From Glaciimonas sp. PCH181 (GTDB taxonomy: Bacteria > Pseudomonadota > Gammaproteobacteria > Burkholderiales > Burkholderiaceae_D), in NCBI RefSeq assembly GCF_003056055.1, contig NZ_PYFP01000001.1, positions 62,001-126,000 of the forward strand: 64,000 nt of DNA, given 5' to 3'. Shown here piece after piece: positions 2,866 through 44,861 of the stretch. The position numbers and the translations under genes are program-made. A model generated the notes under the pieces. It had not been told where the DNA came from and did no database searches. It worked only from the letters and a program-made list of their open reading frames with translations. Each line of letters opens with the position of its first letter. Position 1 is the stretch's first letter.

Positions 2866-2916
2866 AGTAAGTAGTTTGTTAAACCTTAACCTTGGCAGTT
2901 TGAATGGAGGAGCTGT

Positions 2917-4320: not shown

Positions 4321-4329
4321 TCGAAAAAC

Positions 4330-6922: not shown

Positions 6923-6935
6923 TAGGAAAATTACT

Positions 6936-13797: not shown

Positions 13798-14682
13798 GTG
13801 ACATTGCAGCAGCTTGAAACTTTTTTCTGGGTAGTCAACCTTGGCAGCTTCGCGGCGGCGGCTGAGCGACTGTATGCGACCCAGTCAACTATATCGATGC
13901 GGGTACGAGAGTTGGAAAAGAGCCTCGGTGTCGAGTTGTTCGACCGCACTCATCGAACCGCACAGTTGACGCCTAAGGGTCGCGAATTGATGGATTACGC
14001 TGGCCGTATCCTCGACCTTTCGACGGAGCTGGAGCATCGAATCTCTGCGCCGGAAGCAGTGTCCGGTTCAGTCCGATTCGGCGTGGCGGAGGTCGTCACA
14101 ACGACGTGGTTGCCTGAATTGATCAAGCTTATTGCTACACGCTATCCAAACGTCCGACTCGAAATTGAAGAGGCGTTGACTAGCGAACTTATGGATGATC
14201 TTCATGAGGGGCAATTGGAACTCGTGCTCGCACCGGGACATACACGGATACGAAATTTCTCTACGATATCGCTCGGCACGATCGCTTTCGCGTGGATGGC
14301 GAGCCCTGCGCTGAAAGTCGAGAAGCGCACCTATCGACCATCTGAATTGGCATTGTGGCCGGTCATCGGTCTTCAGTCCAAGTCATTTCATTACTCGGCG
14401 ATTGAAGATTGGTTTCAACGCGACCATGTTCGGTGCCGGTATCTTGCACGCTGCAAGAGCCTTGCCGTTGCCGCATCAATGACGATTGCCGGGATGGGTG
14501 TTTCCTTTTTGCCGGTGCGTAGCTATAAGGACGAACTGACACAAGGAAAACTCGAGATCATCGATGTCGAGTTGCCGCTTCCGCCGGTCGAGTTCATTGC
14601 TGCGTTTCCGTTTGGACATTCATATTCGCTTGCCCGTGCTGTGGCTGAGCTGGCGCAAGAGGTCAGCGACTTCGATAAATAG
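13798..14682 (+). CDS. LysR-family transcriptional regulator
   Basis: The N-terminal winged helix-turn-helix reads LQQLETFFWVVNLGSFAAAA then STISMRVRELEKSLGVELFD, followed by an effector-binding domain from about residue 85. The GTG at 13798 is preferred over ATG at 13777 because GGAGG lies 5 bp before it; this gives 294 residues, normal for the family. It stands 354 bp upstream of, and in the same direction as, the reductase and Rieske oxygenase genes, and probably controls them in response to substrate. The substrate-binding half gives no specific ligand clue. Confidence 0.9.
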   Translation: MTLQQLETFFWVVNLGSFAAAAERLYATQSTISMRVRELEKSLGVELFDRTHRTAQLTPKGRELMDYAGRILDLSTELEHRISAPEAVSGSVRFGVAEVVTTTWLPELIKLIATRYPNVRLEIEEALTSELMDDLHEGQLELVLAPGHTRIRNFSTISLGTIAFAWMASPALKVEKRTYRPSELALWPVIGLQSKSFHYSAIEDWFQRDHVRCRYLARCKSLAVAASMTIAGMGVSFLPVRSYKDELTQGKLEIIDVELPLPPVEFIAAFPFGHSYSLARAVAELAQEVSDFDK

Positions 14683-14891
14683 TTCTCCTGAATTCATTGC
14701 TGCGAAGTAAATCGGGCGATTCAGCGCAATTGCCCCCATCCGTATCCCCCCGTCTGCTGCGTTGCAATGACGTCCGGCACATAAAAAAATCCATTCCGAA
14801 ACATAGCGAGACAGTAGCCGAAAGCAAGGTCGGCTTAGGCGAATAGGCGATTTGAAATGCTGCAAAGCAGCGCCGACTGTTCAAGAAAATT

Positions 14892-14915
14892 GATATAAAA
14901 AGGCGTAAATATATC
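14892..14915. promoter_or_regulatory. Candidate LysR binding site
   Basis: GATATA and TATATC form an interrupted palindrome with a 12-bp centre, upstream of the reductase gene in an AT-rich stretch. LysR regulators bind similar T-N11-A dyads. A related GATATATC occurs upstream of the LysR gene. The 354-bp gap holds no other recognised element. Confidence 0.35.
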
Positions 14916-15036
14916 GTTTTACTTCTCTATTACTGCGACCTACACTTCTTTCGAAGCAACGGGAAGATCAGAGGACGTGAGCAAATTTCTGCTCAAAATA
15001 TCCCGGAAATATTCGATCCCGCACACGGAGGAAGAC

Positions 15037-16062
15037 ATGAGTTCACACGTAATGAGCGAGGAGACGCTTGCGCGTCCACAGCCCAAAACCCAATCAAAAA
15101 TTAACGTGCTTTTGCGTGCGATAACGCATCTGGCGGAAAACATTTCTAGTTTTGAGTTTGTCGCTGGCGAAGGAAATATGCTTCCTGTTTTTTCCGCCGG
15201 GTCGCATATCGATGTCCATTTGCCGAATGGGATCATCCGCCAGTATTCGTTGTGCAATGACGCTTCAGAGCAGCATCGGTACGTGGTCGCGGTGCTACGC
15301 GATGCGCATGGCCGCGGAGGGTCGAAGGCGATGCATGATGCGCTTAGGGTCGGTGCTCAAGTCACCATTTCGGTTCCACGCAATCACTTTGCACTAGCCA
15401 ACGGCGTATCAAAACACGTTTTTATAGCAGGCGGCATTGGCATCACGCCGATCATGTCTATGATTGCGCAAGCGCGCGCCCAGCAGCATGATTTTCATCT
15501 GTACTACTGTGCTCGCTCGCCTCAACGTACGGCGTTTCTTGCTGAATTGGCGCCGCTGATCGCAAGTGGCTACGTGACACTACATTACGACGGCGGCGAG
15601 CTTTCAAATAGCTTAGACCTAAAAGCCGCGCTTCGTAATTATGACCCCGGTACACACTTGTACTACTGTGGCCCTGCGGGCCTTCTTAATGCAGTGGAAG
15701 CTGCGAGTGCTCACTGGCCAGCGCAAGCGTTACATTGCGAACGCTTTTCCGGACCGGCAATGCCAGCAGCAGTGTTGAGTTGTGTGCCGGAAGCGCCTGA
15801 AATGTCATTCGACATAGAGTTGGCCAGAGCCGGTAAGCGCTTTACGGTAAAGCCGGGCCAGACCATCGTCGACGTTCTCAAAGCGAATGGTATTGAAGTT
15901 GATGTCTCTTGCAAGCGCGGTTATTGCGGGACATGCATGACGCGCTATCTATCTGGTAAACCACACCATCGCGATTCCGTTCTAGATGAAGAAGATCGCG
16001 AAGAATTCGTGATGATCTGCTGCAGCCGCGCTAAAACAGAAACGCTGGTTCTCGATCTTTAG
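15037..16062 (+). CDS. VanB-like oxygenase reductase (FMN/NAD, 2Fe-2S)
   Basis: A 341-residue electron-transfer protein of the phthalate-dioxygenase-reductase/VanB type. An N-terminal flavin domain (RQYSLCND) is followed by an NAD-binding domain (FIAGGIGITPIMSM, then HLYYCGPAGLL) and a C-terminal plant-type ferredoxin with CKRGYCGTC and a later cysteine in MICCSR. It passes electrons from NAD(P)H to a Rieske oxygenase, here the next gene 60 bp downstream. GGAGG 5 bp before ATG 15037 supports this start over the longer GTG 14977 frame. Gene order reductase-oxygenase is reversed compared with the usual vanAB. Confidence 0.88.
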   Translation: MSSHVMSEETLARPQPKTQSKINVLLRAITHLAENISSFEFVAGEGNMLPVFSAGSHIDVHLPNGIIRQYSLCNDASEQHRYVVAVLRDAHGRGGSKAMHDALRVGAQVTISVPRNHFALANGVSKHVFIAGGIGITPIMSMIAQARAQQHDFHLYYCARSPQRTAFLAELAPLIASGYVTLHYDGGELSNSLDLKAALRNYDPGTHLYYCGPAGLLNAVEAASAHWPAQALHCERFSGPAMPAAVLSCVPEAPEMSFDIELARAGKRFTVKPGQTIVDVLKANGIEVDVSCKRGYCGTCMTRYLSGKPHHRDSVLDEEDREEFVMICCSRAKTETLVLDL

Positions 16063-16122
16063 CCGCACCGGCCATCGTGTAACAAACCTCATTCGACACA
16101 ACAAACAGGAGACGACGCCATT

Positions 16123-17238
16123 ATGAGTAAATTCGAATATGTTAAAGATTGCTGGTATCCGATAGGTTTTTCGGCAGAATTTCCAGAAGGAAAGCTGCAG
16201 GGACACAAAATCGCGAATCAACCAATCGTAATGTGGCGCTCAGACAAAGGCGAGGTTGTCGCTTTCGATGACCGCTGCTGCCATAAACGTTTTCCGCTGT
16301 CGGAAAGTAAGCTGCTCGACAGTGGGCGATTAGAGTGTGCTTATCACGGACTGTGTTATGACACGAGCGGCAAGTGCATTGCGATACCTTCGCAGCCGGA
16401 TAAGGCCATTCCACCGCAGGTAAGGCTCAGTGTTATCCCGGTCACGGAACAGGATGGTGTGGTCTGGGTCTGGCCAGGAAAACCGGAAAATGCGCATAGA
16501 TTGTCACCACCACGCACGCCGGAAATCGTCGACAGTACCAACCTGTCTATCGGCTCTCCCGAGCCGTTGCGCGTACCGGCAAACTATCTGCTTTTAATCG
16601 AGAACCTACTCGACATTACGCACTTCTATCCTTTACATGACGGCAATATCGGTGACAAGGAAAATAGCCGGATACCTGCTGAGTTTGAAGAGGGTGAAAG
16701 TGAAGGGCAGACGTATGTCAAAACGACGCGCCGCGTCGACCACTACCGCCAGCCGCCTTACTTGAAAGAATGGTTTCTATATGACGATGTAGAGCGCATC
16801 CATACGCATTGCATGGTAAGTCCTGGCTTAACACGCGTCGTGATGCGGGTAGCGCCTCCTGGAAAACTCGGCACCGAGGAGGAACGCGGCTACACGTTGT
16901 TGCATCTGCATATGCCTGTCGATGAACGTAATCTGATATGGCGCTGGTCGGTGTCGTGCAAGGACTGGCACAGAACATTGAGCGATCCAAACATGCCCAC
17001 CGCGAAGAAGGTCGCAGAGATGTTCCCGGAGGTTGTCGCGCAAGATCAATGGGCGTTGGAGCGTCAGCAGAAAATGATGGAGTATCCAGACAATGGATAT
17101 TCCGAACTTTTCCTCAAAACTGACAAGGCGTTACGCCGCGCCCGTCAGATCCTAATGGCGTTGCAGCGCAAAGAACGCGAGCCTCAAATGACAGAGGTGG
17201 AGCGCGCCAAGGTGCTTGACCTGGATGCAAATACCTAA
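16123..17238 (+). CDS. Rieske non-heme iron oxygenase, VanA-like
   Basis: A 371-residue oxygenase subunit. The Rieske cluster motif is C52-x-H54 with 17 residues to C72-x2-H75 (CAYHG). The mononuclear iron site is in LLDITHFYPLHDGN, with the expected aspartate and two histidines. Related enzymes demethylate vanillate and other methoxy-aromatics, hydroxylate aromatics, or demethylate quaternary amines; the substrate here is unknown. GGAG upstream supports the start. With the reductase it makes a two-component system. Its place just ahead of a short-chain-acid transporter, CoA-transferase and crotonase is unusual for vanillate degradation. Confidence 0.88.
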   Translation: MSKFEYVKDCWYPIGFSAEFPEGKLQGHKIANQPIVMWRSDKGEVVAFDDRCCHKRFPLSESKLLDSGRLECAYHGLCYDTSGKCIAIPSQPDKAIPPQVRLSVIPVTEQDGVVWVWPGKPENAHRLSPPRTPEIVDSTNLSIGSPEPLRVPANYLLLIENLLDITHFYPLHDGNIGDKENSRIPAEFEEGESEGQTYVKTTRRVDHYRQPPYLKEWFLYDDVERIHTHCMVSPGLTRVVMRVAPPGKLGTEEERGYTLLHLHMPVDERNLIWRWSVSCKDWHRTLSDPNMPTAKKVAEMFPEVVAQDQWALERQQKMMEYPDNGYSELFLKTDKALRRARQILMALQRKEREPQMTEVERAKVLDLDANT

Positions 17239-17577
17239 AATTTGGGGTCGACGCTGTTCCTCCGTGCTCGACCCAAATGACAAGCAAAATAGTTGGCATT
17301 CAGTAGAAGGATTTCTTATAAATCATTCGATAGTAAAAACAGGAAAAGTCTATCGATGCAGGGCGCGAGGCGTAACGCGTTGATCCTTGCGTTGATCCTT
17401 GGACCGTGGCTTCAGATTTCGCGGTGTTTGCCGAGGGGCAACGCTCAGCACATCTGGCAGCGGTTGCCGGCATAACATGAATGGACAAGTGAAGTGGTAG
17501 GACAGGATTGATGGACACAGCGAAAGTTGATCCGATTCCCAAATTATAACTACTCGGCTTAAGCCTGGAGACAAATC
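17239..17577. other. Intergenic stretch
   Basis: About 340 bp between the Rieske gene and the AtoE-type gene. No convincing gene or terminator is seen. A short direct repeat of TTGATCCTTG occurs near 17380-17400. A separate promoter for the transporter-CoA-transferase-crotonase block may lie here. Confidence 0.35.
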
Positions 17578-19026
17578 GTGGAATTTCAAAAATCACCGGC
17601 ATCGAACATCGGACCGGAGCACCAAGCATTGCCTGCATCACCTATTATGACGACACATAAATCGCTGTTGCAGCGGTGTGTCGGATATTGCGTGTATCTT
17701 TTCGAACGACTTATGCCAGATCCGTTCGTGATTGTGATTCTGCTCTCGGTGTTCACTGCAGTGTGCGCGCTTGTATTTGCGCCACGGGGCACGCCATCGA
17801 ATATTCTCGCCGGTTGGTATAAAGGTATTTTTGGCATTTTCACATTCGCCTTTCAGATGGTATTAGTGCTGGTGACCGGTTACGCGCTGGCAAATGCACC
17901 GGTGATTAAAGCCGGGCTACGTCGGCTTAGCCTTCTTGCGACTGGCCCTTGCTCGGCGGTCGTGCTTGTCTTCACCATTGGGGCCGTCGCGACTTTCCTT
18001 AATTGGGGTTTCGGTTTGGTCGTCGGTGCGATGCTGGCCAAGCAAGTCGCTCAGCGAGTACGGGTCGATTTCGCTTGGCTGGTTGCCGCTGGCTATAGCG
18101 CGTGGGTGATTTGGGCGTTCACCGGCCTTTCGAGCTCGATTGCATTGTCGATCGCCTCACCGGGCAACCCGTTGAATCTGGTCGAACAAATAACGCACGC
18201 AGTAGCACCCCTGTCACAGACGGTGTTTGCTGCCTGGAACTTGATCCCGGGATTAGTCGCAATGGTGCTGATCCCGTTGATATTCATCCTGATGCGACCA
18301 GCCGATGCAGACATCATCGCGGCAGATCCTGATGCTCTGGCAGCCGCTGATGAGGCGGCCGCTAAACCTGTCGTGCGTGGCAATACGCCGGCCGGTATAG
18401 TGGAAAACTCCCGAATCTGCGGGCTGGCGTTCGTCCTCGCAGGCGCTGCTTATCTAGCGATGGAGTGGCGTCAGCATGGCGTAAGTCTCGATATCAACAC
18501 CGTAATATTTATTTTCCTTCTTGCCGGCTTGGGTCTGCATGGCAGCCCGGTCAGGTACGTGTTTGCAGTCACTGAAGCTGCGAAAGTCACCGGGCCTATG
18601 CTGCTGCAATACCCGTTCTATGGCGGCATCATGGGCATTATGTCGGCCACTGGATTGGCCGATGCCCTGGCGTCGACATATATCCATTTTGCATCGAGCA
18701 CAACCTTGCCGTTCTTCAGCTATCTGGGCTCGGTGCTGATCACGCTGTTCATCCCGAGCGGCGGGGGACATTGGGCGGTGCAAGGTCCTTTCACTATTCC
18801 TGCAGCAGTGACACTTGGAGCCTCAATACCGGGCACCTCAATGGCGATTGCAGCGGGTGAATTAGCCGGAAGTTTACTGCAACCGTTTTGGGCTATCCCG
18901 GTAGTCGCAATTGCCGGCATTGGTGTGCAGCGCGTACTCGGGTTCACGCTCGTCATATTTCTCACGATAGGAAGCTTGTTTGCCCTAAGTTATCTTTTTA
19001 TCGTACCCGTATTTGCTGCGCCCTAA
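17578..19026 (+). CDS. AtoE/TIGR00366-type short-chain fatty acid transporter, copy 1
   Basis: A 482-residue inner-membrane protein with about 12 hydrophobic segments and family motifs FERLMPDPFVIVILLSVF, NWGFGLVVGAMLAKQVAQR, YPFYGGIMGIMSATGLADAL and FIPSGGGHWAVQGPF. The family (E. coli AtoE) takes up short-chain fatty acids. GTG at 17578 has GGAG about 7 bp upstream. Copy 2 at 22.2 kb shares these motifs. The end of this gene overlaps the longest frame of the CoA-transferase, whose likely start is 35 bp beyond the stop, so they are co-transcribed. A short 2-enoic or hydroxy acid substrate is inferred from neighbours. Confidence 0.9.
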   Translation: MEFQKSPASNIGPEHQALPASPIMTTHKSLLQRCVGYCVYLFERLMPDPFVIVILLSVFTAVCALVFAPRGTPSNILAGWYKGIFGIFTFAFQMVLVLVTGYALANAPVIKAGLRRLSLLATGPCSAVVLVFTIGAVATFLNWGFGLVVGAMLAKQVAQRVRVDFAWLVAAGYSAWVIWAFTGLSSSIALSIASPGNPLNLVEQITHAVAPLSQTVFAAWNLIPGLVAMVLIPLIFILMRPADADIIAADPDALAAADEAAAKPVVRGNTPAGIVENSRICGLAFVLAGAAYLAMEWRQHGVSLDINTVIFIFLLAGLGLHGSPVRYVFAVTEAAKVTGPMLLQYPFYGGIMGIMSATGLADALASTYIHFASSTTLPFFSYLGSVLITLFIPSGGGHWAVQGPFTIPAAVTLGASIPGTSMAIAAGELAGSLLQPFWAIPVVAIAGIGVQRVLGFTLVIFLTIGSLFALSYLFIVPVFAAP

Positions 19027-19060
19027 GCGCGACACAACAGTCCCACGGATAGGAAAGCAC

Positions 19061-20230
19061 ATGGACCAAACTCTCGCATTAGATAGTATTCAAGTCATCG
19101 AAATCTGCAACGTCGCTGCCGGTCCCTATTGCGGCATGCTGCTCGCAGACATGGGCGCAGACGTCATTAAAATAGAGCATCCGGAGGGCGGTGATACATT
19201 GCGCGCGTGGCCGCCGATTACCGATGGTTTCAGCGAGAATTTCGCCTCGCTTAATCGCAACAAGCGGTCAGTCGCACTTGATCTGAAAAACGACGATGAT
19301 GTGCAGCTCGCACGCGAATTAATCCGCTATGCGGACGTGCTTATCGAGAATAATCGACCCGGTGTAATGGATCGGTTAGGCCTCGGCTACGCGGCGATGA
19401 ACGAGCTTAATCCGCGGCTTGTGTATTGCTCGATTTCTGCTTACGGCCAGTCAGGCCCACGTGCGCAGGAAGGCGGTTTCGATCTGACCATTCAGGCAAT
19501 GAGCGGGATCATGAGCATCACAGGGGAGCCGGATGGCGCGCCCGCAAAGTGCGGTGTTCCGCTTGCCGATTTCTCGGCTGGTTTGTATGCGGCTTTTTCG
19601 ATCGCCTCGGTATTGCGCACGGTCGAGCAGACGGGCTGCGGCACACATATCGATATATCCATGCTCGGAGCAACATTGGGCATTGCAGCGTTGCAGACAT
19701 CCGAATATTTTGGCAGCGGACGTGACCCTGTTAAGTTGGGGTCTGCACATCCCCGTAACGCTCCCTACCAAGCGTTTCGGTGCCGCGATGGATATTTCGG
19801 CATGGCGGCTGGCAACAACGCGCTATGGAAATGCGTTTGCGTTGCGCTTGACCATCCGGAATGGTTGTCCGATGACCGTTTCAGCACGCCTACCACTCGC
19901 GCCCGGCATCAGAATGAACTTAGAGAGATGCTAGAAGCGCTATTTGTCGGCGACGATGCAGCTTCCTGGTTGGTACTGTTTCGCGCCGCTGGCGTTCCAT
20001 GCGCACCGATAAATCGGTATTCCGACGTGCTGGCAGACATCCAGGTAGATCACATGGGGTGGGTCCAACCGCTCACTTTGCCAAATGGCGCTCAAACGCA
20101 GACGTTTGGTTCACCCATCCGTTTATCGGGCCACAATTTGCCTATTCGTCGTCCGCCACCGGCGCTTGGGGAGCATAGCGCTGAAATCCTCGCATCCCTA
20201 TTCCCGGTCGTTGCGAAGGAAGCGTCATGA
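19061..20230 (+). CDS. CaiB/BaiF class III CoA-transferase
   Basis: A 389-residue enzyme transferring CoA between carboxylic acids. Family motifs are ICNVAAGPYCGMLLADMGADVIKIE near the N-terminus, LNRNKRSVALDLK, ENNRPGVMDRLGLGY and GGFDLTIQAMSG, where D141 is the expected catalytic aspartate that carries the acyl anhydride. The ATG at 19061 is preferred because GATAGGAAAG precedes it; an upstream in-frame ATG would overlap the transporter. The downstream crotonase overlaps by ATGA. The family includes crotonobetainyl-CoA and formyl-CoA transferases and AcuN-like acrylate CoA-transferases. Activation of the acid imported by the adjacent transporter is the likely role. Confidence 0.9.
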   Translation: MDQTLALDSIQVIEICNVAAGPYCGMLLADMGADVIKIEHPEGGDTLRAWPPITDGFSENFASLNRNKRSVALDLKNDDDVQLARELIRYADVLIENNRPGVMDRLGLGYAAMNELNPRLVYCSISAYGQSGPRAQEGGFDLTIQAMSGIMSITGEPDGAPAKCGVPLADFSAGLYAAFSIASVLRTVEQTGCGTHIDISMLGATLGIAALQTSEYFGSGRDPVKLGSAHPRNAPYQAFRCRDGYFGMAAGNNALWKCVCVALDHPEWLSDDRFSTPTTRARHQNELREMLEALFVGDDAASWLVLFRAAGVPCAPINRYSDVLADIQVDHMGWVQPLTLPNGAQTQTFGSPIRLSGHNLPIRRPPPALGEHSAEILASLFPVVAKEAS

Positions 20231-20946
20231 CAGACTTACTCGAAATTGATCGGGATCAAGACTGCTGGACGTTTACGCTGAACCGCCCGGACAAGATGAA
20301 TGCACTTAGCGCGCCGTTGGTGGAGGCGCTCCTTGAGGGGGTTGAGAATGCACATGTTAGCGGTGCTCGGGTATTGGTGTTTCGTGGATGCGGCAAGAAT
20401 CTTAGCGCGGGCTTTGATTTCGGTGGCCTTGATAGCCAGAGTGATGGCGATCTCTTGTTGCGCTTTGTCAGGATCGAGACCTTGCTGCATACAGTCGCTT
20501 CCTCGCCATGCCTGACAGTCGCATTCGCCCACGGTAGAAATTTTGGCGCCGGTGTTGATCTGTTCGCCGTATGCAGGCAGCGCTATAGCACCGCAGACGC
20601 GCGCTTCCGAATGCCAGGACTCAAGTTTGGGCTGGTTTTGGGGTCTCGACGCTTTGCCGATCTGGTAGGGCTGGAAAAAGCGCTGGAAATTCTACAGCAA
20701 GGGCGCATCATCCTTGCAGGCGAGGCCATTGAGATTGGGCTGGCGACGCATCTGCTTGAGGAGGGAGAATGGTCGGATGCCATCACGGATGCGCAACGCG
20801 TTGCGCGGGGACTTGATCGGACTACGCAACAACAGCTATATCAGGCGCTTGACAAAGAAATGCCTGACCGCGATCTCGCGTCGGTCGTGCGATCTGCGGC
20901 AAGACCGGGTTTAAAAAGCCGCATCACGGATTATTTAACTCAGTAA
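20227..20946 (+). CDS. Enoyl-CoA hydratase/isomerase family protein, atypical active site
   Basis: A 239-residue crotonase-fold protein starting in an ATGA overlap with the CoA-transferase, so the two are translationally coupled. The oxyanion-hole region LSAGFDFGGL is present. Where standard hydratases have their two catalytic glutamates, this protein has GAGVDLFAVCR (Asp instead of the first Glu) and FRMPGLKFG (Gly instead of the second). It is also shorter than the usual 255-260. It may therefore be an isomerase, hydrolase or lyase rather than a water-adding hydratase, or a non-catalytic partner. Confidence 0.85.
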   Translation: MTDLLEIDRDQDCWTFTLNRPDKMNALSAPLVEALLEGVENAHVSGARVLVFRGCGKNLSAGFDFGGLDSQSDGDLLLRFVRIETLLHTVASSPCLTVAFAHGRNFGAGVDLFAVCRQRYSTADARFRMPGLKFGLVLGSRRFADLVGLEKALEILQQGRIILAGEAIEIGLATHLLEEGEWSDAITDAQRVARGLDRTTQQQLYQALDKEMPDRDLASVVRSAARPGLKSRITDYLTQ

Positions 20947-21071
20947 TAGTCCAGTCATCTACGTTGCGGTAAGCACCAGGCGGCGCGATTGATCCGGCTC
21001 AAATGTTAGCCAAATGCATCAGAAAACGTCTCCTAATGCATCTTGGCTTAAGCCAGGCTATCGCACCTGTT

Positions 21072-21713
21072 TCAACTCGTTGCGTTCTCTGGCTTAATCG
21101 GCTGTAAATGCTTGAGGTGCTCAATGAAAGCATTGCTTGCATCGTCTAGAGGTGCGCTGGATTTCTCAAGCTTCGAGCACAGCACAGCCCCTTCCCAGGC
21201 GATCCAGAAATAGCGCGCAAGTGCCTCACTGTTGGCATCGGCCCGTAGATGGCCTGTTACTTTTGCTTCGTCAAGGCAGGCTTGAATACGTTGACGCCAA
21301 TCCGTCAGTACGCTAAGGAGCGCGAGTCGAAATTTATCGTCCAATGCGGCCAGCTCCTGGCCCAAATTTCCGATCAGGCAACCTCGCTTGTAATCAAATC
21401 GCGCCATTCCTGCTGTAGCATCTAATGTGAAAGCCTTGATACGGTCTAAAGGTTGAATTGATGAGTCCGTCAGTATGCGATCAAGCTTGTGCGCAAAATA
21501 ATCGGCATACCCCTCAATCACCGCGAGCGTGTAGGTTTCTTTGTTTTCGAAGTAGTAATAAAAAGATCCTTTCGGAACGCCAGCAGCTTTAACGACTTCG
21601 TCGAGCGGTGTGTTGTGGAAACCTTTTTCCGTAAAGATTTCGACGCCAATGCGAATGAGTTCCGCGCGTTTTCCTTTATCACGGGGTGCAGATGCTGCGG
21701 GATTTTTAGCCAT
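21072..21713 (-). CDS. TetR-family regulator, AcuR-like
   Basis: A 213-residue repressor. The N-terminal helix-turn-helix reads FTEKGFHNTPLDEVVKAAGVPKGSFYYYF in segments, and the ligand domain includes RGCLIGNLGQELAA, typical of the TetR_C_13 type that includes AcuR, the acrylate-responsive repressor. It is divergent from the second AtoE-type gene. Two inverted copies of an 18-bp operator lie in the gap, and a third precedes the acuI-like gene, so autoregulation and control of both are expected. AcuR identity is inferred from fold, operators and the neighbouring acuI; the inducer is not proven. Confidence 0.88.
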   Translation of the reverse strand: MAKNPAASAPRDKGKRAELIRIGVEIFTEKGFHNTPLDEVVKAAGVPKGSFYYYFENKETYTLAVIEGYADYFAHKLDRILTDSSIQPLDRIKAFTLDATAGMARFDYKRGCLIGNLGQELAALDDKFRLALLSVLTDWRQRIQACLDEAKVTGHLRADANSEALARYFWIAWEGAVLCSKLEKSSAPLDDASNAFIEHLKHLQPIKPENATS

Positions 21714-21959
21714 TTGTGGTTCCGGTTGGCGATGCCATCAGGTGGGCGATTGTATGAGCGGTCATGCGTAAAATTTAGGCATAGTTTCCGCATTCAAATC
21801 CGATCAAGGACTCCGCATTTATTTTTTCTGCGTTGTAGGCGTCGAATCGCTTTTCCGTTTTCAATGCTAGGTTGTATTCATTTCCCCCGGGCAAGGTCTC
21901 GCACGGAAAACCCAGCAACTCAAACATCAAATATTTTCTTGAGGAATCATAATAGTTTA

Positions 21960-21977
21960 TAACTGACTGGTCAACTA
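21960..21977. promoter_or_regulatory. TetR operator site O1
   Basis: TAACTGACTGGTCAACTA is the exact reverse complement of site O2 at 22093-22110. It is a near-palindrome around TTGACyrGTCAA and lies about 250 bp upstream of the TetR start codon, in the divergent gap. Confidence 0.75.
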
Positions 21978-22092
21978 AATCTAGAAATTCGGTTGAATCC
22001 GTTATTGTGAGTGGCTTGGAACAGAGGCAAGATGCACAGCATCCTCTCGATAGCATAGCTAAATCCCCTCTGTACCTGTCTTTGAAAATCTA

Positions 22093-22110
22093 TAGTTGAC
22101 CAGTCAGTTA
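22093..22110. promoter_or_regulatory. TetR operator site O2
   Basis: TAGTTGACCAGTCAGTTA, the inverted copy of O1, lies about 130 bp upstream of the second AtoE-type gene and just ahead of an AT-rich stretch (TATAAATATG) that may hold its promoter. The 525-bp gap between the divergent genes holds no convincing ORF. Confidence 0.75.
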
Positions 22111-22238
22111 TTAGTGGGTATAAATATGCCCAGTGGCTGATTTAGATTTGCTCGTTAGAAGCGAACTGTCGGCCACTAGCTCAAACAAGCTCGTCAAGTT
22201 TGAGTAAAAACCCACATTCATAAATATTAAGGAGACAA

Positions 22239-23642
22239 GTGGTGGAAAAAATAATTTCGGACAACGCGTCGCGGCGAGATGGCGACGGATTTCTCAGCGC
22301 CGCACTGCAGCGGTTTGCAAGAATTTGCGTAATGATCGTCGAACGGATCATGCCTGATCCCTTTGTCATTGCCATTTTGCTGACAGTGCTGACCTGCGTT
22401 TTGGCTTATTTTTTAGCGCCGCATGCCTCGGTTCCCCAAGTATTGACAAGCTGGGTCGACGGTGTTTTCAAAATCGCCAGCTTTGCCTTTCTGGTCGCGC
22501 TGACACTGGTAACCGGTCACGCCCTATCGACCTCCAAACCGGTGGCTAGTCTTCTTAAAACGATTGCACAGATCCCGACTACAAAACAAGGGGCGATGAC
22601 CCTGACATTCTTGGTTTCGATGACGGCTGGCCTGTTGAATTGGGCTGTTGGCCTCGTTGTCTCGGCGCTATTTGCGCGAGAAATAGCGAAACGTATGCGT
22701 GTAGATTTTGCATGGTTGGTAGCGGCCGCTTATGCTGGCTGGTCATTCTATGTGTGCGGCATTTCCAGCTCGATCGCGCTGGTGAGTGCTAGCAAAGGTT
22801 CGCCTCTCAATGTGATAGAGAAAATCACGGGAAACGTGCTTCCGATGAAGGAGTTTTTGTTTTCTCCGTTGAACTACATACCTTTGATTATTCTGGCGAT
22901 CGTTCTTCCCCTGGTATTTCGCGCAATGATGCCCAGCGATGCGGAGACGATTGCAGCAGACCCAGTCCGTCTTAAAGCTGAAGATGCGGTGATCCCGGAA
23001 GAAAGTGCATCGCATACTATTGCCGGAATGCTCGACCATGCATGGATACTTAATCTTGCGCTGGTAGGGCTTGGCCTGGCATACATTGGGCTGAAAATAT
23101 CAGAGGGCGCATTTGCGATGGATTTGAATATGTTAGTTCTCATATTTCTGTTGCTGGGCTTGTTGATGCATTGGACGCCAAAGGCTTATGTACGCGCCAT
23201 AAACAATGCGGCTCGTGTGACAGGACCGATTCTGCTGCAGTTCCCTATTTACGGCGGAATTATGGGCATCATGTCGGCCACCGGATTGGCGGACGTTATC
23301 GCCCAATGGTTCATTAGTTTTTCAACGACGCAAACGCTGCCATTTTGGAGTTTTGTATCGTCCGTGATCATTAGTATGTTCATACCGAGCGCGGGTGGTC
23401 ACTGGGTAGTTCAGGCACCGTTTGTGGTTGCGGCTGCAGAGCATCTACATGTTGCGCAGGGTGCGGTGGCGATTGCAGTTGCACTAGGCGAGAGCGCTGC
23501 CGACATGATTCAGCCTATGTGGGTCATTCCGCTGTTGGCAATTGCCGGTGTGGGCATGGGGCGTGTCATGGGTTATACCGTCGTGGCTTTTTTCATCATG
23601 TGCGCAGTAATGGGCGGCACTTTACTTTTTTTCCCGAATTAG
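22239..23642 (+). CDS. AtoE/TIGR00366-type short-chain fatty acid transporter, copy 2
   Basis: A 467-residue inner-membrane protein with the same motifs as copy 1: VERIMPDPFVIAILLTVL, LNWAVGLVVSALFAREIAKR, FPIYGGIMGIMSATGLADVI and FIPSAGGHWVVQAPF. Two consecutive GTG codons (22239, 22242) could start it; AAGGAG lies 7 bp before the second, which is favoured by spacing. It is divergent from the TetR gene and behind operator O2. The two copies differ clearly in sequence, so this is not a recent duplication; they may import different short acids or respond to different signals. Confidence 0.9.
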   Translation: MVEKIISDNASRRDGDGFLSAALQRFARICVMIVERIMPDPFVIAILLTVLTCVLAYFLAPHASVPQVLTSWVDGVFKIASFAFLVALTLVTGHALSTSKPVASLLKTIAQIPTTKQGAMTLTFLVSMTAGLLNWAVGLVVSALFAREIAKRMRVDFAWLVAAAYAGWSFYVCGISSSIALVSASKGSPLNVIEKITGNVLPMKEFLFSPLNYIPLIILAIVLPLVFRAMMPSDAETIAADPVRLKAEDAVIPEESASHTIAGMLDHAWILNLALVGLGLAYIGLKISEGAFAMDLNMLVLIFLLLGLLMHWTPKAYVRAINNAARVTGPILLQFPIYGGIMGIMSATGLADVIAQWFISFSTTQTLPFWSFVSSVIISMFIPSAGGHWVVQAPFVVAAAEHLHVAQGAVAIAVALGESAADMIQPMWVIPLLAIAGVGMGRVMGYTVVAFFIMCAVMGGTLLFFPN

Positions 23643-23766
23643 GCCGCAGTTGTACGATTAATGATTTATCTAAAAGTGACGTAAAAAATGGACGAGTTCA
23701 ACTGCTCGTGAATTTCAAAGGATAGCAATGTTGACATCACTTGAAGCCAAACTCTGTCCAAATAAA

Positions 23767-23784
23767 TATTTGACTAGTCAACTA
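23767..23784. promoter_or_regulatory. TetR operator site O3 upstream of acuI-like gene
   Basis: TATTTGACTAGTCAACTA contains the perfect palindrome TTGACTAGTCAA at 23770-23781 and matches O1 at 15 of 18 positions. It lies about 92 bp before the acuI-like start codon, within the 233-bp gap after the transporter, indicating a second regulated promoter inside the block. Confidence 0.8.
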
Positions 23785-23875
23785 GCAAGTTGCATATAGT
23801 GGTGGGTGCTGCGCAAATACGCCTGCATCTGCCTCTTTTCCGGGATAAATCCCACTTAAAATTAAGGAGACTCTA

Positions 23876-24877
23876 ATGTCGCAAAACAAATTTCAAGCCC
23901 TGGTTCTTCGCGAAGAAGACAAGAAAACCAATGCCTCCATTGAGACACTAGCTCTTGACGCGCTGCCTGATGAAGATACGCTGATTAAAGTTGACTATTC
24001 CACGCTGAACTACAAAGATGCGCTGGCGATCACCGGCAAGGGCAAGATTGTACGGACCTGGCCAATGGTGCCGGGAGTCGACTTTGCCGGGACTGTCGTT
24101 GAATCCAGTAACCCGCAATACAAGCCGGGGACCAGAGTGGTACTGACCGGATGGAGTGTCGGTGAAAAATATTGGGGCGGTTACAGCCAGTACCAGCGTG
24201 TCAAAAGCGACTGGTTAGTCCCGCTGCCGGAAGGACTCACTACGCGGCAGGCGATGATGATCGGTACTGCAGGTTTCACGGCAATGCTCTGCGTTAATGC
24301 GCTGCAAGCGGCCAATATCACGCCGCAAAGCGGGCCAGTGCTAGTCACAGGTGCTGCCGGGGGAGTCGGGAGCGTAGCGGTCGCCATTCTCACAAATCTT
24401 GGCTATTCGGTTACCGCGCTCACGGGCGATCCCGACAAACATACTTATGTAAAACAACTCGGCGCAACCGCATTTGCGGATGGACCGGAGTGGAGCGAGG
24501 CTCCTCGTGCCTTGGAAGCGCAACGGTGGGCTGCCGCGATCGACACTGTAGGCTCTAAAGTGCTGGCACGTGTTCTGGCGGAAATGCACTACGGCGGCGT
24601 TGTCGCTGCGTGTGGTTTAGCTGGCGGGGCCGATCTGTCGACCACCGTCATGCCGTTCATTCTGCGCAGTGTCAGACTGATCGGCGTTGACTCCGTGATG
24701 CTGCCAACCAAAGATCGCGTTAGTGCATGGCAGCGTATCGTCAACGATTTGCCAATGGAAGTGTTGAATGGTATTACGGCGACGACTGTTTCACTGACCG
24801 ACGTTAAGGACGCCGCGGAAGACATGCTGGGCGGAAAACTCAAAGGACGCGTGCTAGTTGATGTTAACGCTGTCTGA
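23876..24877 (+). CDS. acuI: Acrylyl-CoA reductase AcuI/YhdH family
   Basis: A 333-residue zinc-free medium-chain reductase of the YhdH/YhfP/AcuI group. YSTLNYKDALAITGKGKI and PMVPGVDFAGTV in the N-terminal domain are followed by the NADPH-binding VTGAAGGVGSVAV. AcuI reduces the toxic electrophile acrylyl-CoA to propionyl-CoA. AAGGAG precedes the ATG. It has its own operator O3 and is followed 59 bp later by an acyl-CoA ligase. In other bacteria acuI is controlled by AcuR, which fits the TetR gene and operators here. A broader 2-enoyl-CoA reductase role is possible. Confidence 0.85.
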   Translation: MSQNKFQALVLREEDKKTNASIETLALDALPDEDTLIKVDYSTLNYKDALAITGKGKIVRTWPMVPGVDFAGTVVESSNPQYKPGTRVVLTGWSVGEKYWGGYSQYQRVKSDWLVPLPEGLTTRQAMMIGTAGFTAMLCVNALQAANITPQSGPVLVTGAAGGVGSVAVAILTNLGYSVTALTGDPDKHTYVKQLGATAFADGPEWSEAPRALEAQRWAAAIDTVGSKVLARVLAEMHYGGVVAACGLAGGADLSTTVMPFILRSVRLIGVDSVMLPTKDRVSAWQRIVNDLPMEVLNGITATTVSLTDVKDAAEDMLGGKLKGRVLVDVNAV

Positions 24878-24936
24878 TCATTGTGCAGGTAACGCAATGA
24901 TATAAAACCGCTCTAAAAAACAGGATGGAGACTGCT

Positions 24937-26439
24937 GTGCAAATAAAATTAAACATGGGCCTGGGAAATGCGTTGAACAGTGCGTGCGGCAAGTTTGACG
25001 ATGCTGTCGCGCTCACTGGCAAGCATGGTTCGTTGTCATATGCGGCGCTGGCGCGCGAGGCGGAACGCGTATCAGATGCGCTGCGCAACATTGGGATCGG
25101 ACCCAATGAGCCGGTGCATGTCCACGTGTCGAATCATCCACTGGATATAGCGGCATTGCTAGGGGTATGGAATGCGGGCGGTGTCGTGGTTCCGGTACAT
25201 CGCAGCACGCCTGCGGCAGTGGCGGCTAAGGTTCTGGATAAAACCAAGGCGCGATTGATGATTGACATGCAGGCAGCAGCCAACTCTGCAAGCGTCGTGA
25301 CGATGATCACAACGACGTGCCCACCGGACAGGCCGCTGTTGGAGAATGCCGCATTCATTATCTTTACTTCGGGATCCACCGGCACGCCGAAAGGAGTTGT
25401 GGTCTCGCATGATGCGTTTTACGGCAAGATTCAGCAGATCGATAGCTTACTTAATTTTCAACCGTATGAGAATACGTTGCTGGTATTGAATATTACTTTT
25501 AGTTTCGGTCTCTGGATAAGTTTGCTGACATTGATGCGGGGCGGCACGCTAGTCATGGCTGAAAAATTTGATCCAACAACCTTCCTGGGATCACTGGTCG
25601 ATAACAACATCACGCGTGTCGGGATGGTGCCGACAATGATGCGTGTTCTGTTTTCTGATTCAGGATTGCTATCAGAAATCGATCGAGTAGTTACGCAAGA
25701 TAAATTGCGCCAGATTTTAATCGGGGGAGAATCGCTGGGCCATTCGCTTGCATCTACCATCAGACAGCGCTTTTCACGTACTGACCTGATCGACATTTAC
25801 GGATTGACCGAAACGGCGACCTGTGACTTTTTTTCTTTCCCAGAAGATTATGCGAAATATCCTGGCTGCATCGGTCGGCCTTCGCCCAACGTTGGTTTCC
25901 GCATAGTCGACGCTTATGATGCAGCGGTGCCATCGGGCACCTTGGGCGAACTGCAAATACACAGTCCCTATTTGATGAACGGCTATCTGGATGAACCAGA
26001 CCTTACGACCTCGGCCCTTTCGGATGGCTGGCTCAAAACTGGCGACTTAGCGCGACTAGTAGACGACTCGGTGGTTGAACTGATGGGGCGAAGCAAGGAA
26101 ATAATTAGCCGGGGAGGGAACAAGGTTACTCCAGGAGAATTGGAACAATTGTTATGCTCGCACCCCGATATTTCGGCCGCCATGGCCGTGGGCCTTGCGG
26201 ATGCCGTTCTCGGAGAACGTATTCACGTGTTGGTTGTGCCGCGAACTGGTACTTCTCTTGAAATTTCGGCTTTAAAAAAATATCTTGAAAGCCGGTTGGA
26301 AAAATTCAAGCAGCCCGACACTTATTACATATCGGATGAGCTGCCATTAGGACGTACCGGCAAGGCGGATAGAGGGCAGCTCAAGATGATGATCCAATCC
26401 GGTGCCATCGCATCGGCCTCAGCAGCGACTTCGGCTTAA
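24937..26439 (+). CDS. AMP-forming acyl-CoA synthetase
   Basis: A 500-residue member of the adenylate-forming family. It has the P-loop-like FTSGSTGTPKGVV, the adenine-binding DIYGLTETATCDF, the hinge region LKTGDLARL, and the C-terminal LGRTGKADRGQL with the catalytic lysine. It forms an acyl-CoA from acid, ATP and CoA. GTG at 24937 has GGAG 6 bp upstream and is preferred to ATG at 24925, which lacks a spaced ribosome-binding site. Between AcuI and a crotonase it most likely activates acrylate or a similar short acid, a second route beside the CoA-transferase at 19 kb. Confidence 0.88.
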   Translation: MQIKLNMGLGNALNSACGKFDDAVALTGKHGSLSYAALAREAERVSDALRNIGIGPNEPVHVHVSNHPLDIAALLGVWNAGGVVVPVHRSTPAAVAAKVLDKTKARLMIDMQAAANSASVVTMITTTCPPDRPLLENAAFIIFTSGSTGTPKGVVVSHDAFYGKIQQIDSLLNFQPYENTLLVLNITFSFGLWISLLTLMRGGTLVMAEKFDPTTFLGSLVDNNITRVGMVPTMMRVLFSDSGLLSEIDRVVTQDKLRQILIGGESLGHSLASTIRQRFSRTDLIDIYGLTETATCDFFSFPEDYAKYPGCIGRPSPNVGFRIVDAYDAAVPSGTLGELQIHSPYLMNGYLDEPDLTTSALSDGWLKTGDLARLVDDSVVELMGRSKEIISRGGNKVTPGELEQLLCSHPDISAAMAVGLADAVLGERIHVLVVPRTGTSLEISALKKYLESRLEKFKQPDTYYISDELPLGRTGKADRGQLKMMIQSGAIASASAATSA

Positions 26440-26461
26440 CGCGCACATTAAAAGGACCACT

Positions 26462-27289
26462 ATGTCTGACTTCACCACGATCCAATATACGTCCCAAGAC
26501 GGTATCGCACACATCATCTTTAACCGGCCCGAGCGCCTGAATGCATTAGACAAAACGATGCTGCATGAGATTAACGACGCTGTTGATCGCGCTGAATCTG
26601 ACGATACTGTGCGCGTTATCTTGGTGAGCGGATCTGGCCGTGCCTTTTCATCTGGCTTCGATTTAAAGGCCCAAATGGAAAGCCAACCGCAAGGGTCGAA
26701 AATCTGGCGTGACATTCTCGATCTCGACTTTAATACCACGATGCGCTTTTGGAATAGTCCCAAACCGACTATTGCCGCCGTTCATGGCGCGTGCATGGCA
26801 GGCGCGTTTGAAATAGCCCTCTCTTGCGATATTACAATCGCCGCAGAAGATGCTATTTTTGGTGAGCCTGAACTGAAATTTGGTGCAGGGATCGTGACCA
26901 TGTTGTTGCCTTGGATGACAGGGCCGAAACAGGCAAAGGACATCATTTTTACTGGCGCAGACAGAATCAATGCGCAAGATGCACTTCGCATGGGATTTAT
27001 CAGCCGTATTGTTCCGCAAGGCACGCATGTTGAGACGGGGCTTAGCATTGCTCGCGGGATTGCATTGGTAGATCCAGTCCTTGTCAGTCAAACAAAAAAG
27101 GCGCTGAATCGGACCTATGAACTTCAGGGAATGCAAAATGCGCTGAAAGAAGCGCTGGACATCGATCACGCGATTGAATCGAAGGGTTCACCGGATAAAC
27201 GCGCATTCATGGACATCGCGCGAGAGCGCGGGATGCGGGCAGCGATCGCATGGCGTGATGCGCGCTTTGCTGAAGCACAGTCTACATGA
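26462..27289 (+). CDS. Enoyl-CoA hydratase, canonical active site
   Basis: A 275-residue crotonase. The oxyanion-hole segment SSGFDLKAQ and both catalytic glutamates are in place: [10 protein letters not shown] and [11 protein letters not shown]. It should hydrate a 2-enoyl-CoA; for acrylyl-CoA this gives 3-hydroxypropionyl-CoA. ATG 26462 with AAAGGA upstream is the natural start, 22 bp after the ligase stop; a longer in-frame start would overlap the ligase. The MFS gene begins inside its last codons (ATGA overlap). Confidence 0.88.
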
Positions 27290-28479
27290 ACAAGCCGATT
27301 GCCACTATTGTTCTGGCGCAACTATTCGGTACATCGCTCTGGTTTAGCGCGAACAGTGCAGCAGACGATTTAATACGCCTCTGGGGATTAAGTGCAGCGG
27401 ATATCGGTTGGTTAACCAATGCTGTTCAAGCCGGTTTTATCGTGGGGACGTTGGTTTTTGCTTTTACGGGTTTTGCGGATCGTTTCGCTGCCAGCAAGAT
27501 ATTTGCGGTCTGCTGCATCCTCGGCGCCATTTTTAACGGTCTCTTTGCTCTTTTGAGTACAGGGCTGGAAAGCGCCTTGTGGTTCCGGTTCGTCGTCGGT
27601 TTGTCTCTTGCCGGAATATATCCGTTGGGAATGAAACTTGTTGTCAGCTGGAATCCGCAAAGCGCCGGACGAAGTCTTGGCCTACTAGTTGGCATGCTAA
27701 CGCTGGGCACGGCGTTGCCGCATGGAATACGGATGGTTGGCGGGATGGTTTCCTGGCAAGCGGTTATCCTGACATCCTCCGCGTTGGCGCTTGTCGGCGC
27801 GTTGATGGTTGGCTGGCTAGGCGATGGTCCGCACCTTCAACTGCGTGTCGATTCATCAAGCTCAATCGGTAACGTCATGGATGCATTCCGCGTAAAAGAA
27901 TTTCGGGCATCCGCCTTCGGTTACTTTGGCCATATGTGGGAATTATATGCATTCTGGACCTTGGTGCCTGTCCTGCTTCTGGATGTGCTGTCCTCATCGG
28001 GATTGCCAACGCATCAAAGTATTTCTGGTTGGGCATTCGCGGTAATCGGTATCGGTGCGGTGGGCTGTATCGCCGGTGGCCTACTCAGCGAAAGAGTGGG
28101 CAGCGCACGCGTGGCATGGTGGGCGTTGGCGACCTCGGGCGCGATATGCCTGCTGTTTCCGCTTTTGCAAACTTTGCCGGTGTTCTGGAAGCTTGCATTA
28201 ATGCTCCTGTGGGGCGTGGCAGTGGTCGCCGACTCGCCGCAGTTCTCAGCGATGTCAGTCAAGGCTTGTCCACCTGGATTAGTTGGCAGCGCGTTGGCAA
28301 TTCAAAACAGCCTGGGATTTCTCCTCACAACCTTCGCGATTCTGATTACCACGTCGGCTTACCCAATAATCGGCAGCAAAGTCGCGTGGATTTTACTGCC
28401 AGGACCGATTTTTGGACTGATGAGTATGCGTTTATTATTGCGAGGAGCTTCAGTGGTTTTGCCTGTTCGTTGTGAGTAA
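27286..28479 (+). CDS. MFS transporter
   Basis: A 397-residue protein with about 12 hydrophobic segments in two halves and a central polar loop near residue 190. [19 protein letters not shown] in helix 4 is typical of the major facilitator superfamily. It overlaps the crotonase by ATGA, so it belongs to the same operon. Substrate unknown; it could export a toxic intermediate or import the growth substrate alongside the AtoE-type transporter. Confidence 0.85.
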
Positions 28480-28569
28480 CGCTCTGCTAAATAGCCGAGA
28501 TATGCTTTAAAACATACATAACCTGACGTCAAATTGCCGCAGCTAAATACGATGACGTGACACCACATC

Positions 28570-29481
28570 TCACGTCAATTCAATCAAATACGGCGTGAGG
28601 ATGTCCGTCATCCAGCGCATTACCGCCTGAACGCGGGGTGCAAGCTGGTGGCGGTTGGCGTATAGCAGGGAAACAGGCATCGGGCACGCGGTGAACTCTG
28701 GCAGCACCAGAACTAATGATCCTTGATCAACCAATCGCTGCAGGCCGAGCGTCGGTGCCTGAATGAAGCCTAAACCAGCCAGAGCGGCCGCCTGATAGGC
28801 ATCGGTGCCATTTACCGAGACCGCAGCGGGCATCGGTAAAGTTTTGTAGGCGTTATTCGCACGGTCGAAGTACTCCCATCCGGCATCGTTCGACGTCAGC
28901 TTTGGCGTGTAGTGCACGATGCGGTGTTGCGTCAGATCAGCGAGTGTCTGAGGCACGCCGTATTGGCTTAGGTAGTCTGGACTAGCGGCGTTTGACATTT
29001 GCATCAGCCCGATAGGACGGGCGACCAGATCGGCGTTTCCCAATACGCCTACGCGCAAGATGCAGTCGAATCCTTCTTGGATCAGATCTACGCGGCGGTC
29101 GGTTGTGCTAATGCCGATTTCCAGCAGCGGATGCGCGCTCAGGAATTCTGGCAGACGCGGAATGATGACATCGCGGGCGAAGACGTTCGGCATGTCGATT
29201 CTGAGCCGTCCTGTGAGGCCTCCCGACGCTGGTTGAAACATGACCTGAAGTTGTTCCGTTTCAATGAGCAACTCTTTGCAGCGATCAAGGAAGCGTTTGC
29301 CATCTTCGGTCAGACGCACACTACGCGTCGTTCGTTGTAGCAGGCGAGTACCGAGGCGCGCTTCTAGCTGCTGGATCGACGTCGATACATGGCCCTTTGC
29401 CAGCCCCAATTGTTCTGCGGCACGGCTGAAACTGGCTAAATCGGCCACTCTTGAAAAAATCCGAAGTTCATCAAAATCCAT
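28570..29481 (-). CDS. LysR-family transcriptional regulator
   Basis: A 303-residue regulator starting MDFDELRIFSRVADLASFSR, with helix-turn-helix HVSTSIQQLEARLGTRLLQR and a substrate domain from about residue 90. The longer frame from 29526 adds 15 residues (MVTLFFYKNNQGRAA) not typical of the family, so the internal ATG is preferred. It is divergent from the SDR gene with a shared 123-bp promoter gap and is of the AaeR/CrgA type often paired with one neighbouring oxidoreductase. Confidence 0.88.
   Translation of the reverse strand: MDFDELRIFSRVADLASFSRAAEQLGLAKGHVSTSIQQLEARLGTRLLQRTTRSVRLTEDGKRFLDRCKELLIETEQLQVMFQPASGGLTGRLRIDMPNVFARDVIIPRLPEFLSAHPLLEIGISTTDRRVDLIQEGFDCILRVGVLGNADLVARPIGLMQMSNAASPDYLSQYGVPQTLADLTQHRIVHYTPKLTSNDAGWEYFDRANNAYKTLPMPAAVSVNGTDAYQAAALAGLGFIQAPTLGLQRLVDQGSLVLVLPEFTACPMPVSLLYANRHQLAPRVQAVMRWMTDILTPYLIELT

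Positions 29482-44784: not shown

Positions 44785-44861
<77 letters not shown>

Follow-up and report, generated by a model that had tools for sequence, protein, structure and literature searches.

We present a comparative sequence analysis of a gene stretch of Glaciimonas sp. PCH181, lying within a window of 64,000 nucleotides (G000:C1:62001-126000, G000 being the source genome), in which two independently inherited modules meet at about position 21004 of the window. Module 1 (13798-20946, + strand) holds genes for a LysR regulator, a VanB-like reductase, a Rieske oxygenase, an AtoE-type carrier, a class III CoA-transferase and an atypical crotonase, and is a recurrent operon of its own. Module 2 (21072-28479) holds genes for AcuR, another AtoE-type carrier, AcuI, an acyl-CoA ligase, a crotonase and an MFS transporter, and by its gene content is an ordinary AcuR-type acrylyl-CoA module. 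We tentatively propose that module 1 would be an oxygen-dependent pathway which demethylates 3-methylthiopropionate (MMPA) to 3-mercaptopropionate and carries the product on to a three-carbon (C3) CoA ester and inorganic sulfur, its crotonase having turned C-S lyase or desulfinase. Such a pathway would be an aerobic counterpart of the corrinoid route of methanogens, with a host range that extends from Burkholderiaceae of soils to alpha- and gammaproteobacteria of the sea.

The genes named by the initial annotation are all present as open frames where it had placed them, with scores well above the curated Pfam cut-offs; they form not one gene group, however, but two, parted by the divergent acuR. 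By blastn, homology to the congener G002 at the DNA level spans 8477 bp at 89.6% (window 21004-29474) and has its left edge 58 bp past the stop of the module-1 crotonase at 20946, and homology with a second congener, G004, begins at 21099 (blastn). The block from acuR to the MFS gene is syntenic in both, with protein identities of 92-97% in G002, where the LysR and short-chain dehydrogenase/reductase (SDR) genes that follow are included, and of 85-92% in G004. In neither congener do the genes left of acuR match anything in the window, and both carry module 2 without adjoining module 1. Across the four other Glaciimonas genomes, the best-scoring matches to the Rieske oxygenase are only 29-30% identical and those to the CoA-transferase 32-40%, and no module-1 crotonase is found at E 1e-30. 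Ligase, crotonase, MFS, acuR and acuI genes are grouped in G109 and G012 too, and the 20 kb at these two loci are free of module-1 genes save for a generic LysR match (30%) in G109. Co-occurrence of the two halves, which had been put forward as the check on a joint system, was not seen at the loci compared: no module-2 gene, AcuR and AcuI included, was found at orthologue-level thresholds in any of the 81 Rieske loci described below, within the stretch fetched.

To follow module 1 beyond this genome, a collection of species genomes was scanned with its Rieske family; 79 loci were obtained, most of them proteobacterial, and to these we added three from plasmids (three of the five records with >50% identity). 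One locus with a 33-residue match (L099) was excluded, leaving 81 for the counts, and since many loci are cut by contig ends, all presence counts are lower bounds. The Rieske gene is accompanied by a reductase gene in 47 loci (median distance 85 bp), a CoA-transferase in 47, a LysR gene in 39 (match at 38% identity or more), a crotonase in 37 and an AtoE-type carrier in 22. A dedicated reductase is present in the window as well, 60 bp upstream of the oxygenase gene. The AtoE-type carrier holds the same place in Burkholderiaceae, and other loci have transporters of the tripartite ATP-independent periplasmic (TRAP) type (DctM 15, DctP 15) or Liv-ABC type (LivG 8). On a plasmid of Paraburkholderia graminis, the genes run LysR-reductase-Rieske-AtoE-CoA-transferase-crotonase, with S-(hydroxymethyl)glutathione dehydrogenase next. 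Among other neighbours, an AhpD/CMD-family gene is found in 19 of the 81 loci (e.g. L053 9235-9792), and two betaproteobacterial metagenome-assembled genomes (MAGs) have an acetolactate-synthase-like thiamine pyrophosphate (TPP) enzyme by the Rieske module (L067 4567-6276, L070 3274-4962); the thiodipropionate cluster of Variovorax paradoxus TBEA6 is described as likewise holding an ilvX-like gene (PMC6370202).

Oxidative demethylation is very probably the role of the module-1 Rieske enzyme, as predicted from its family and its neighbours. Residues which we take to be the Rieske [2Fe-2S] ligands and the 2-His-1-Asp iron triad are present and invariant in 30 of 30 aligned members, a VanA_C domain is present, and the top structural matches are O-demethylases, the nearest structure at 24% identity and the nearest PDB sequence being dicamba O-demethylase. 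The prediction draws above all on genes for formaldehyde or corrinoid methyl transfer in 15 of the 81 loci, 12 of them with FrmA, FghA or Gfa and 3 with a corrinoid protein, a methyltetrahydrofolate methyltransferase and an activase. FrmA is found in 11 loci (1.32 Mb in all 81) from several lineages, where roughly 0.5 would be expected, a rough figure taken from 2 over-cut-off copies in the 5.3 Mb of this genome and setting an identity threshold beside a profile cut-off. The locus L063 adds a URO-D methyltransferase with a methylcobalamin:coenzyme M (CoM) methyltransferase as its best PDB match (90.9 bits). The earlier suggestion that the Rieske pair acts on a methylated precursor is thus probably right, given these one-carbon (C1) genes and the closest folds.

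The crotonase of module 1 was also aptly called atypical, with Asp and Gly replacing the catalytic Glu pair. At both catalytic Glu positions of the module-2 crotonase and of enoyl-CoA hydratases, Asp and Gly stand in all 29 atypical crotonases aligned (from 37 available family frames), and the only close solved relative is 3ISA, an uncharacterised protein. Of 399 genomes of the order, 41 carry this family, and 38 crotonase loci were compared: 34 from the 40 other crotonase-positive genomes of the order (6 not fetched) and 4 from a search of the family, in which 5 of 392 genomes, the source genome included, were positive at E 1e-30. CoA-transferase and crotonase form a same-strand pair in 27 of the 38, and a Rieske gene of the module-1 type is present in one (L214). 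A cupin gene of the 3-mercaptopropionate-dioxygenase type is present in 21. In 17 loci it shares the crotonase's strand at a distance of no more than 203 bp, and 14 of these also have the CoA-transferase no more than 113 bp from it. The copy in L204 scores 239.6 bits to a named 3-mercaptopropionate dioxygenase. Across the order, the dioxygenase occurs in 37 of 41 crotonase-positive genomes versus 37 of 358 crotonase-negative ones (p 5e-27), and by genus in 21 of 23 versus 16 of 136 (p 3e-14), both values ignoring kinship; thresholds were E 1e-40 for the crotonase and 1e-30 for the dioxygenase, and both searches are taken to cover the same 399 genomes. This linkage suggests that the CoA-transferase/crotonase pair most likely works on acids related to 3-mercaptopropionate. 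Eight of the 38 loci (L202-L207, L210, L211) also have a PIG3-type quinone-oxidoreductase/MDR gene near the crotonase, perhaps encoding an enoyl-CoA reductase that takes the place of AcuI.

Individual genomes tie the Rieske module to the same chemistry. In Caballeronia ptereochthonis (L031), a dioxygenase-type gene stands convergently directly after the Rieske-AtoE genes, scoring 212.4 bits to a named 3-mercaptopropionate dioxygenase and 241.7 bits to 4qma, whose type we take to be 3-mercaptopropionate dioxygenases, and at most 33.8 bits to chains named 'Cysteine dioxygenase type 1'. The Rieske locus L067 has a CoA-transferase and no crotonase, and the sole crotonase match of that genome (E 1e-30) adjoins a dioxygenase on another contig. 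Pusillimonas caeni (L039) has a second crotonase with a dioxygenase 16 bp away. In G707, AcuI (495.2 bits, cut-off 440) lies 2 bp from a dioxygenase, with a ligase, another crotonase and a CoA-transferase/crotonase pair within 10 kb, making this genome an independent assembly of the functions found here, the Rieske pair excepted. The source genome has one dioxygenase copy of this type, on another contig (G000:C6:156791-157375), and none in module 1. Whole-genome searches covering 42 of the 79 genome loci, picked by hand and many already with a crotonase in the locus, gave a crotonase in 34.

Gene content, separate inheritance, C1-gene neighbours and the crotonase-dioxygenase linkage are observed; from them we infer the reactions and substrates of the following pathway. 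The AtoE-type carrier would import a small methylated acid, whose methyl group would be hydroxylated by the VanB-like reductase and the Rieske oxygenase and lost as formaldehyde. The parallel with methanesulfonate monooxygenase first suggested hydroxylation at an S-methyl group, by which MMPA would give 3-mercaptopropionate and formaldehyde. The class III CoA-transferase would then form the CoA thioester, and the atypical crotonase would remove the beta substituent by C-S cleavage, converting 3-mercaptopropionyl-CoA, or 3-sulfinopropionyl-CoA after the dioxygenase, to a C3-CoA ester (acrylyl- or propionyl-CoA) and inorganic sulfur. In module 2, AcuI would reduce acrylyl-CoA, the crotonase would hydrate it and the ligase would activate exogenous acid; AcuI would also clear any acrylyl-CoA arising from module 1, and this may be the reason why module 1 settled beside module 2, a suggestion prompted by their adjacency in one genome. 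MMPA as the substrate of module 1 is the best explanation we have, a bold one whose likelihood we set just below even, and the pathway as a whole is offered with a little less assurance.

Several observations weigh against this proposal. The sequence evidence does not separate an S-methyl from an O-methyl substrate, methoxy-aromatics are the substrates of the closest Rieske enzymes with a characterised function, and C1 genes were not seen in 66 of the 81 Rieske loci, within stretches of which many are cut by contig ends. The second catalytic Glu, missing in the module-1 crotonase, would be expected to matter for elimination. The best PDB match of the dioxygenase copies of L204 and L031 is 4qma (256.8 and 241.7 bits), deposited as 'Cysteine dioxygenase type I', so that the substrate of the dioxygenase is itself presumptive. 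In three of the 38 crotonase loci (L208, L209, L228), BoxB (benzoyl-CoA epoxidase) lies a few kb from the crotonase and hints at an aromatic role in some cases. In L053 and L062, gammaproteobacterial MAGs that are near-copies of each other, the corrinoid set is separated from the CoA-transferase by an arginine-deiminase/DDAH-like gene (L053 16240-17181, L062 16448-17389), which is unexplained. As module 2 is absent from the 81 Rieske loci, its link with module 1 here may be chance. Among the 42 Rieske genomes searched, 8 gave no crotonase match and only 14 have the dioxygenase, 28 being without it, and it is nearby in only 1 of 82 Rieske loci. With the dioxygenase so scarce, 3-mercaptopropionate is not required as a product by the Rieske data, and either 3-mercaptopropionyl-CoA undergoes direct cleavage or the Rieske enzyme forms another product.

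The substrate could thus be an ether, the Rieske enzyme removing the O-methyl group of 3-methoxypropionate or another short beta-methoxy acid to give 3-hydroxypropionate, with CoA transfer and dehydration leading to acrylyl-CoA for AcuI to reduce. The O-demethylases among the closest folds, the formaldehyde genes of the Rieske loci, the URO-D-type methyltransferase set of L063 and the adjoining acrylate module would all suit this; it leaves the strong crotonase-dioxygenase link unexplained, however, and 3-methoxypropionate is to our knowledge not an abundant natural acid; we consider this rather unlikely. A sulfone such as 3-(methylsulfonyl)propionate could be demethylated directly to 3-sulfinopropionate, which the CoA-transferase and crotonase would desulfinate, and a dispensable dioxygenase, found in 14 of the same 42 Rieske genomes in which the crotonase is found in 34, would then be explained. 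The sulfone substrate is without direct support, and we know of no precedent for a crotonase-family desulfinase of this kind; we regard this as improbable. Equally slim is the prospect that module 1 demethylates a methoxy-aromatic or hydroxycinnamate-type acid, with the aromatic CoA ester processed further by the CoA-transferase and crotonase. The VanA_C family, the dicamba O-demethylase match, the Liv and TRAP carriers of relatives and BoxB in three of the 38 crotonase loci, with BoxA in two of these, are in its favour, whereas no ring-cleavage gene was identified in the recurrent clusters of those neighbours that were scanned, AtoE-type carriers belong to a short-chain fatty acid family and the crotonase-dioxygenase linkage points elsewhere. 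An AhpD/CMD-like gene lies close to the Box genes. That the Rieske enzyme hydroxylates its substrate without demethylation, the C1 neighbours being incidental, would fit the 66 loci without them in the stretch fetched, but is poorly reconciled with the excess of FrmA over several lineages and with the alternative methyl-transfer set in three other loci, and we think it has a low probability.

The description of the second half as an AcuR/AcuI acrylyl-CoA module is borne out by an AcuR score above the family cut-off (NCBIfam NF051457, 255.7 versus 247 bits), which is passed in 6 of 294 genomes of the family, and by the gene set shared with relatives. AcuI exceeds TIGR02823 (442.4 versus 297.25 bits) and just misses the AcuI equivalog NF051456 (439.2 versus 440), and an acyl-CoA ligase is found with acuR in G002, G004, G109 and G012. 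The 18-bp palindrome TAGTTGACYRGTCAACTA recurs with at most two mismatches at three places genome-wide, all between module-2 genes, two before the carrier gene (atoE2) and one before acuI. This placement is kept in relatives (2 sites in G002, 3 in G004, 1 in G109): the two pre-atoE2 palindromes are common to G002 and G004 and the pre-acuI site to G004 and G109, whereas G002 lacks the palindrome before acuI and the G012 stretch has no site at all. The count of AcuR-type palindromes by itself is not above chance or control: a 12-bp core has 9 matches in the window versus 6.8 by chance, and the 18-bp palindrome with up to three mismatches occurs at 4 places versus 8 for a reversed-pattern control. 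The fourth, weaker site (3 mismatches, G000:C1:2017549-2017566) has an AcuR-family paralogue (2016774-2017352) some 200 bp away. What favours an operator role is the placement, and module 2 rather than module 1 is the probable target of AcuR, which presumably binds these palindromes.

The view of the initial annotation was that both halves form one two-route system for the same imported acid, acrylate or a similar 2-enoic acid. AcuI/AcuR and a class III CoA-transferase with a crotonase are indeed both present, an analogous cluster of AcuN-AcuK with AcuI/AcuR is described from Halomonas (PMC13104084), and G707 combines AcuI with CoA-transferase and crotonase. The modules are nevertheless separable, in the 81 Rieske loci and in the congeners, the palindromes with up to two mismatches are found in module 2 only, and the module-1 crotonase is without the Glu pair that is essential for acryloyl-CoA hydration in AcuH; we regard a single system as improbable.

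The features of the stretch are collected in Table 1. The LysR start is kept at 13798, as first annotated, where its orthologues begin at the corresponding residue; the starts at about 15037 (reductase), 19061 (CoA-transferase) and 26462 (second crotonase) are probable ones, judged by eye from orthologues.

Table 1. Features of modules 1 and 2, in window positions.
Feature	Position	Strand	Basis or remark
LysR-type regulator, module 1	13798..14682	+	Pfam LysR_substrate/HTH_1; open frame from 13777
VanB-like FAD/NAD/[2Fe-2S] reductase	15037..16062	+	Fer2, NAD_binding_1, FAD_binding_6; open frame from 14977
Rieske oxygenase, VanA_C family, probable oxidative demethylase	16123..17238	+	Pfam Rieske + VanA_C
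AtoE-type (SCFA_trans) acid transporter, module 1	17578..19026	+	SCFA_trans 376.7 bits
Class III CoA-transferase	19061..20230	+	CoA_transf_3 413.3 bits; open frame from 19013
Atypical crotonase	20227..20946	+	Divergent crotonase, 73.4 bits; Asp111/Gly131 at catalytic Glu positions
Left edge of DNA homology with congener G002, join of modules	21004		blastn
acuR, TetR-family regulator	21072..21713	-	NF051457 255.7 bits, cut-off 247
AcuR-type palindrome 1, putative operator	21960..21977		
AcuR-type palindrome 2, putative operator	22093..22110		
AtoE-type transporter, module 2	22239..23642	+	SCFA_trans 377 bits; 97% identical in G002
AcuR-type palindrome 3, putative operator, upstream of acuI	23767..23784		Same place in G004
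acuI, acrylyl-CoA reductase (YhdH/AcuI family, MDR)	23876..24877	+	TIGR02823 442.4 bits
AMP-forming acyl-CoA ligase	24925..26439	+	AMP-binding 226 bits
Canonical crotonase	26462..27289	+	ECH_1 160.9 bits; both catalytic Glu; open frame from 26402
MFS transporter	27286..28479	+	MFS_1 75 bits; syntenic in congeners

Left of module 1, window 243-12207 holds genes for a TPP-enzyme C-terminal part and for histidinol-dehydrogenase family, DUF1329, MMPL/RND, YCF48-like, xylose-isomerase-like and DUF1302 proteins, a cluster with no match in the fetched congener stretches. To the right, an apparently whole LigT phosphoesterase frame (30882-31508) precedes probable gene remnants at 31835-33203, a partial 2-hydroxyacid dehydrogenase domain and a TcuA-like FAD dehydrogenase (profile positions 151-460 of 467), and three tandem tRNA-Met genes lie at 44785-45111.

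As regards the acrylate part, the claim that no system of such composition was known went too far. AcuN-AcuK (CoA-transferase and hydratase) and PrpE-AcuI (ligase and reductase) are given as two proposed acrylate routes, with acuN, acuK, acuI and acuR in one Halomonas cluster (PMC13104084, PMC5651017), and AcuR/AcuI and both the CoA-transferase and ligase routes appear as already described in PMC13104084, PMC3338564 and PMC5651017. Module 2 resembles the AcuR-AcuI regulons of Rhodobacter, Alcaligenes and Halomonas in its AcuR above the cut-off, an AcuI of the same group and perhaps its palindromic putative operators, and differs from them by the added AtoE-type transporter, AMP ligase, crotonase and MFS transporter; no lyase for dimethylsulfoniopropionate (DMSP) was recognised among the neighbours scanned. 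Module 1 shares with AcuN-AcuK of Halomonas HTNK1/D47 a class III CoA-transferase gene adjoining a crotonase gene. Its crotonase, however, is without both catalytic Glu, where AcuH is reported to need Glu112/Glu132 for acryloyl-CoA hydration (PMC5651017), and while AcuN-AcuK cluster with ddd/acu genes, AcuR/AcuI are found in none of the 81 module-1 relatives (ddd genes were not sought).

Other parallels to module 1 lie in demethylation and in sulfur-bearing propionate chemistry, the latter being common, in the proposed pathway, with the catabolism of V. paradoxus TBEA6. Compared with the VanAB-type O-demethylases of vanillate, dicamba and guaiacol, its Rieske enzyme is a distinct subfamily, coupled, unlike those systems, to a CoA-transferase, a crotonase and short-acid transporters. 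In TBEA6 (mdo, act, acdA, ech), 3-mercaptopropionate catabolism is described to involve the dioxygenase Mdo and Act, a class III CoA-transferase, and crotonase-family genes of the cluster are reported to be needed for or affect growth on thiodipropionate (PMC6370202); a paper cited by PMC8102459 calls Act class III in its title. Relatives of the module-1 pair likewise combine a class III CoA-transferase and a crotonase with a dioxygenase-type gene, the CoA-transferase being likened to Act by family membership only. Here, unlike in TBEA6, a probable Rieske demethylase stands upstream and the dioxygenase lies outside the module, elsewhere in the genome.

Demethylation of MMPA has long been known from early physiology. 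In Methanosarcina it is reported to proceed by corrinoid/CoM-methyltransferase systems, and methanogen mtpCAP-msrH is reported as required for growth on MMPA (PMC7374477). The net step from MMPA to mercaptopropionate proposed here is the same as in these systems (mtpCAP, MtsAB), and the corrinoid set and URO-D methyltransferase beside the Rieske module in L063 are reminiscent of that route, whereas module 1 would be oxygen-dependent and formaldehyde-releasing. MMPA is described as the demethylation product of DMSP which may also arise from methionine (PMC5395565), and a review counts its conversion to mercaptopropionate among the branches of the marine sulfur cycle (PMC9412504). In the open-licence literature searched, which does not cover subscription papers, we found neither an aerobic gene for this conversion nor a description of the Rieske half.

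Overall, the acrylate half is known in kind, and what appears new, as judged from the gene sets compared, is the proposed coupling of a Rieske demethylase to thio-acid CoA catabolism. If the proposal is true, module 1 may supply the missing genes of a long-known sulfur-cycling step, and the crotonase family around the uncharacterised 3ISA would gain a function. The gene set would make the MMPA-demethylation branch traceable in metagenomes and testable in culture.

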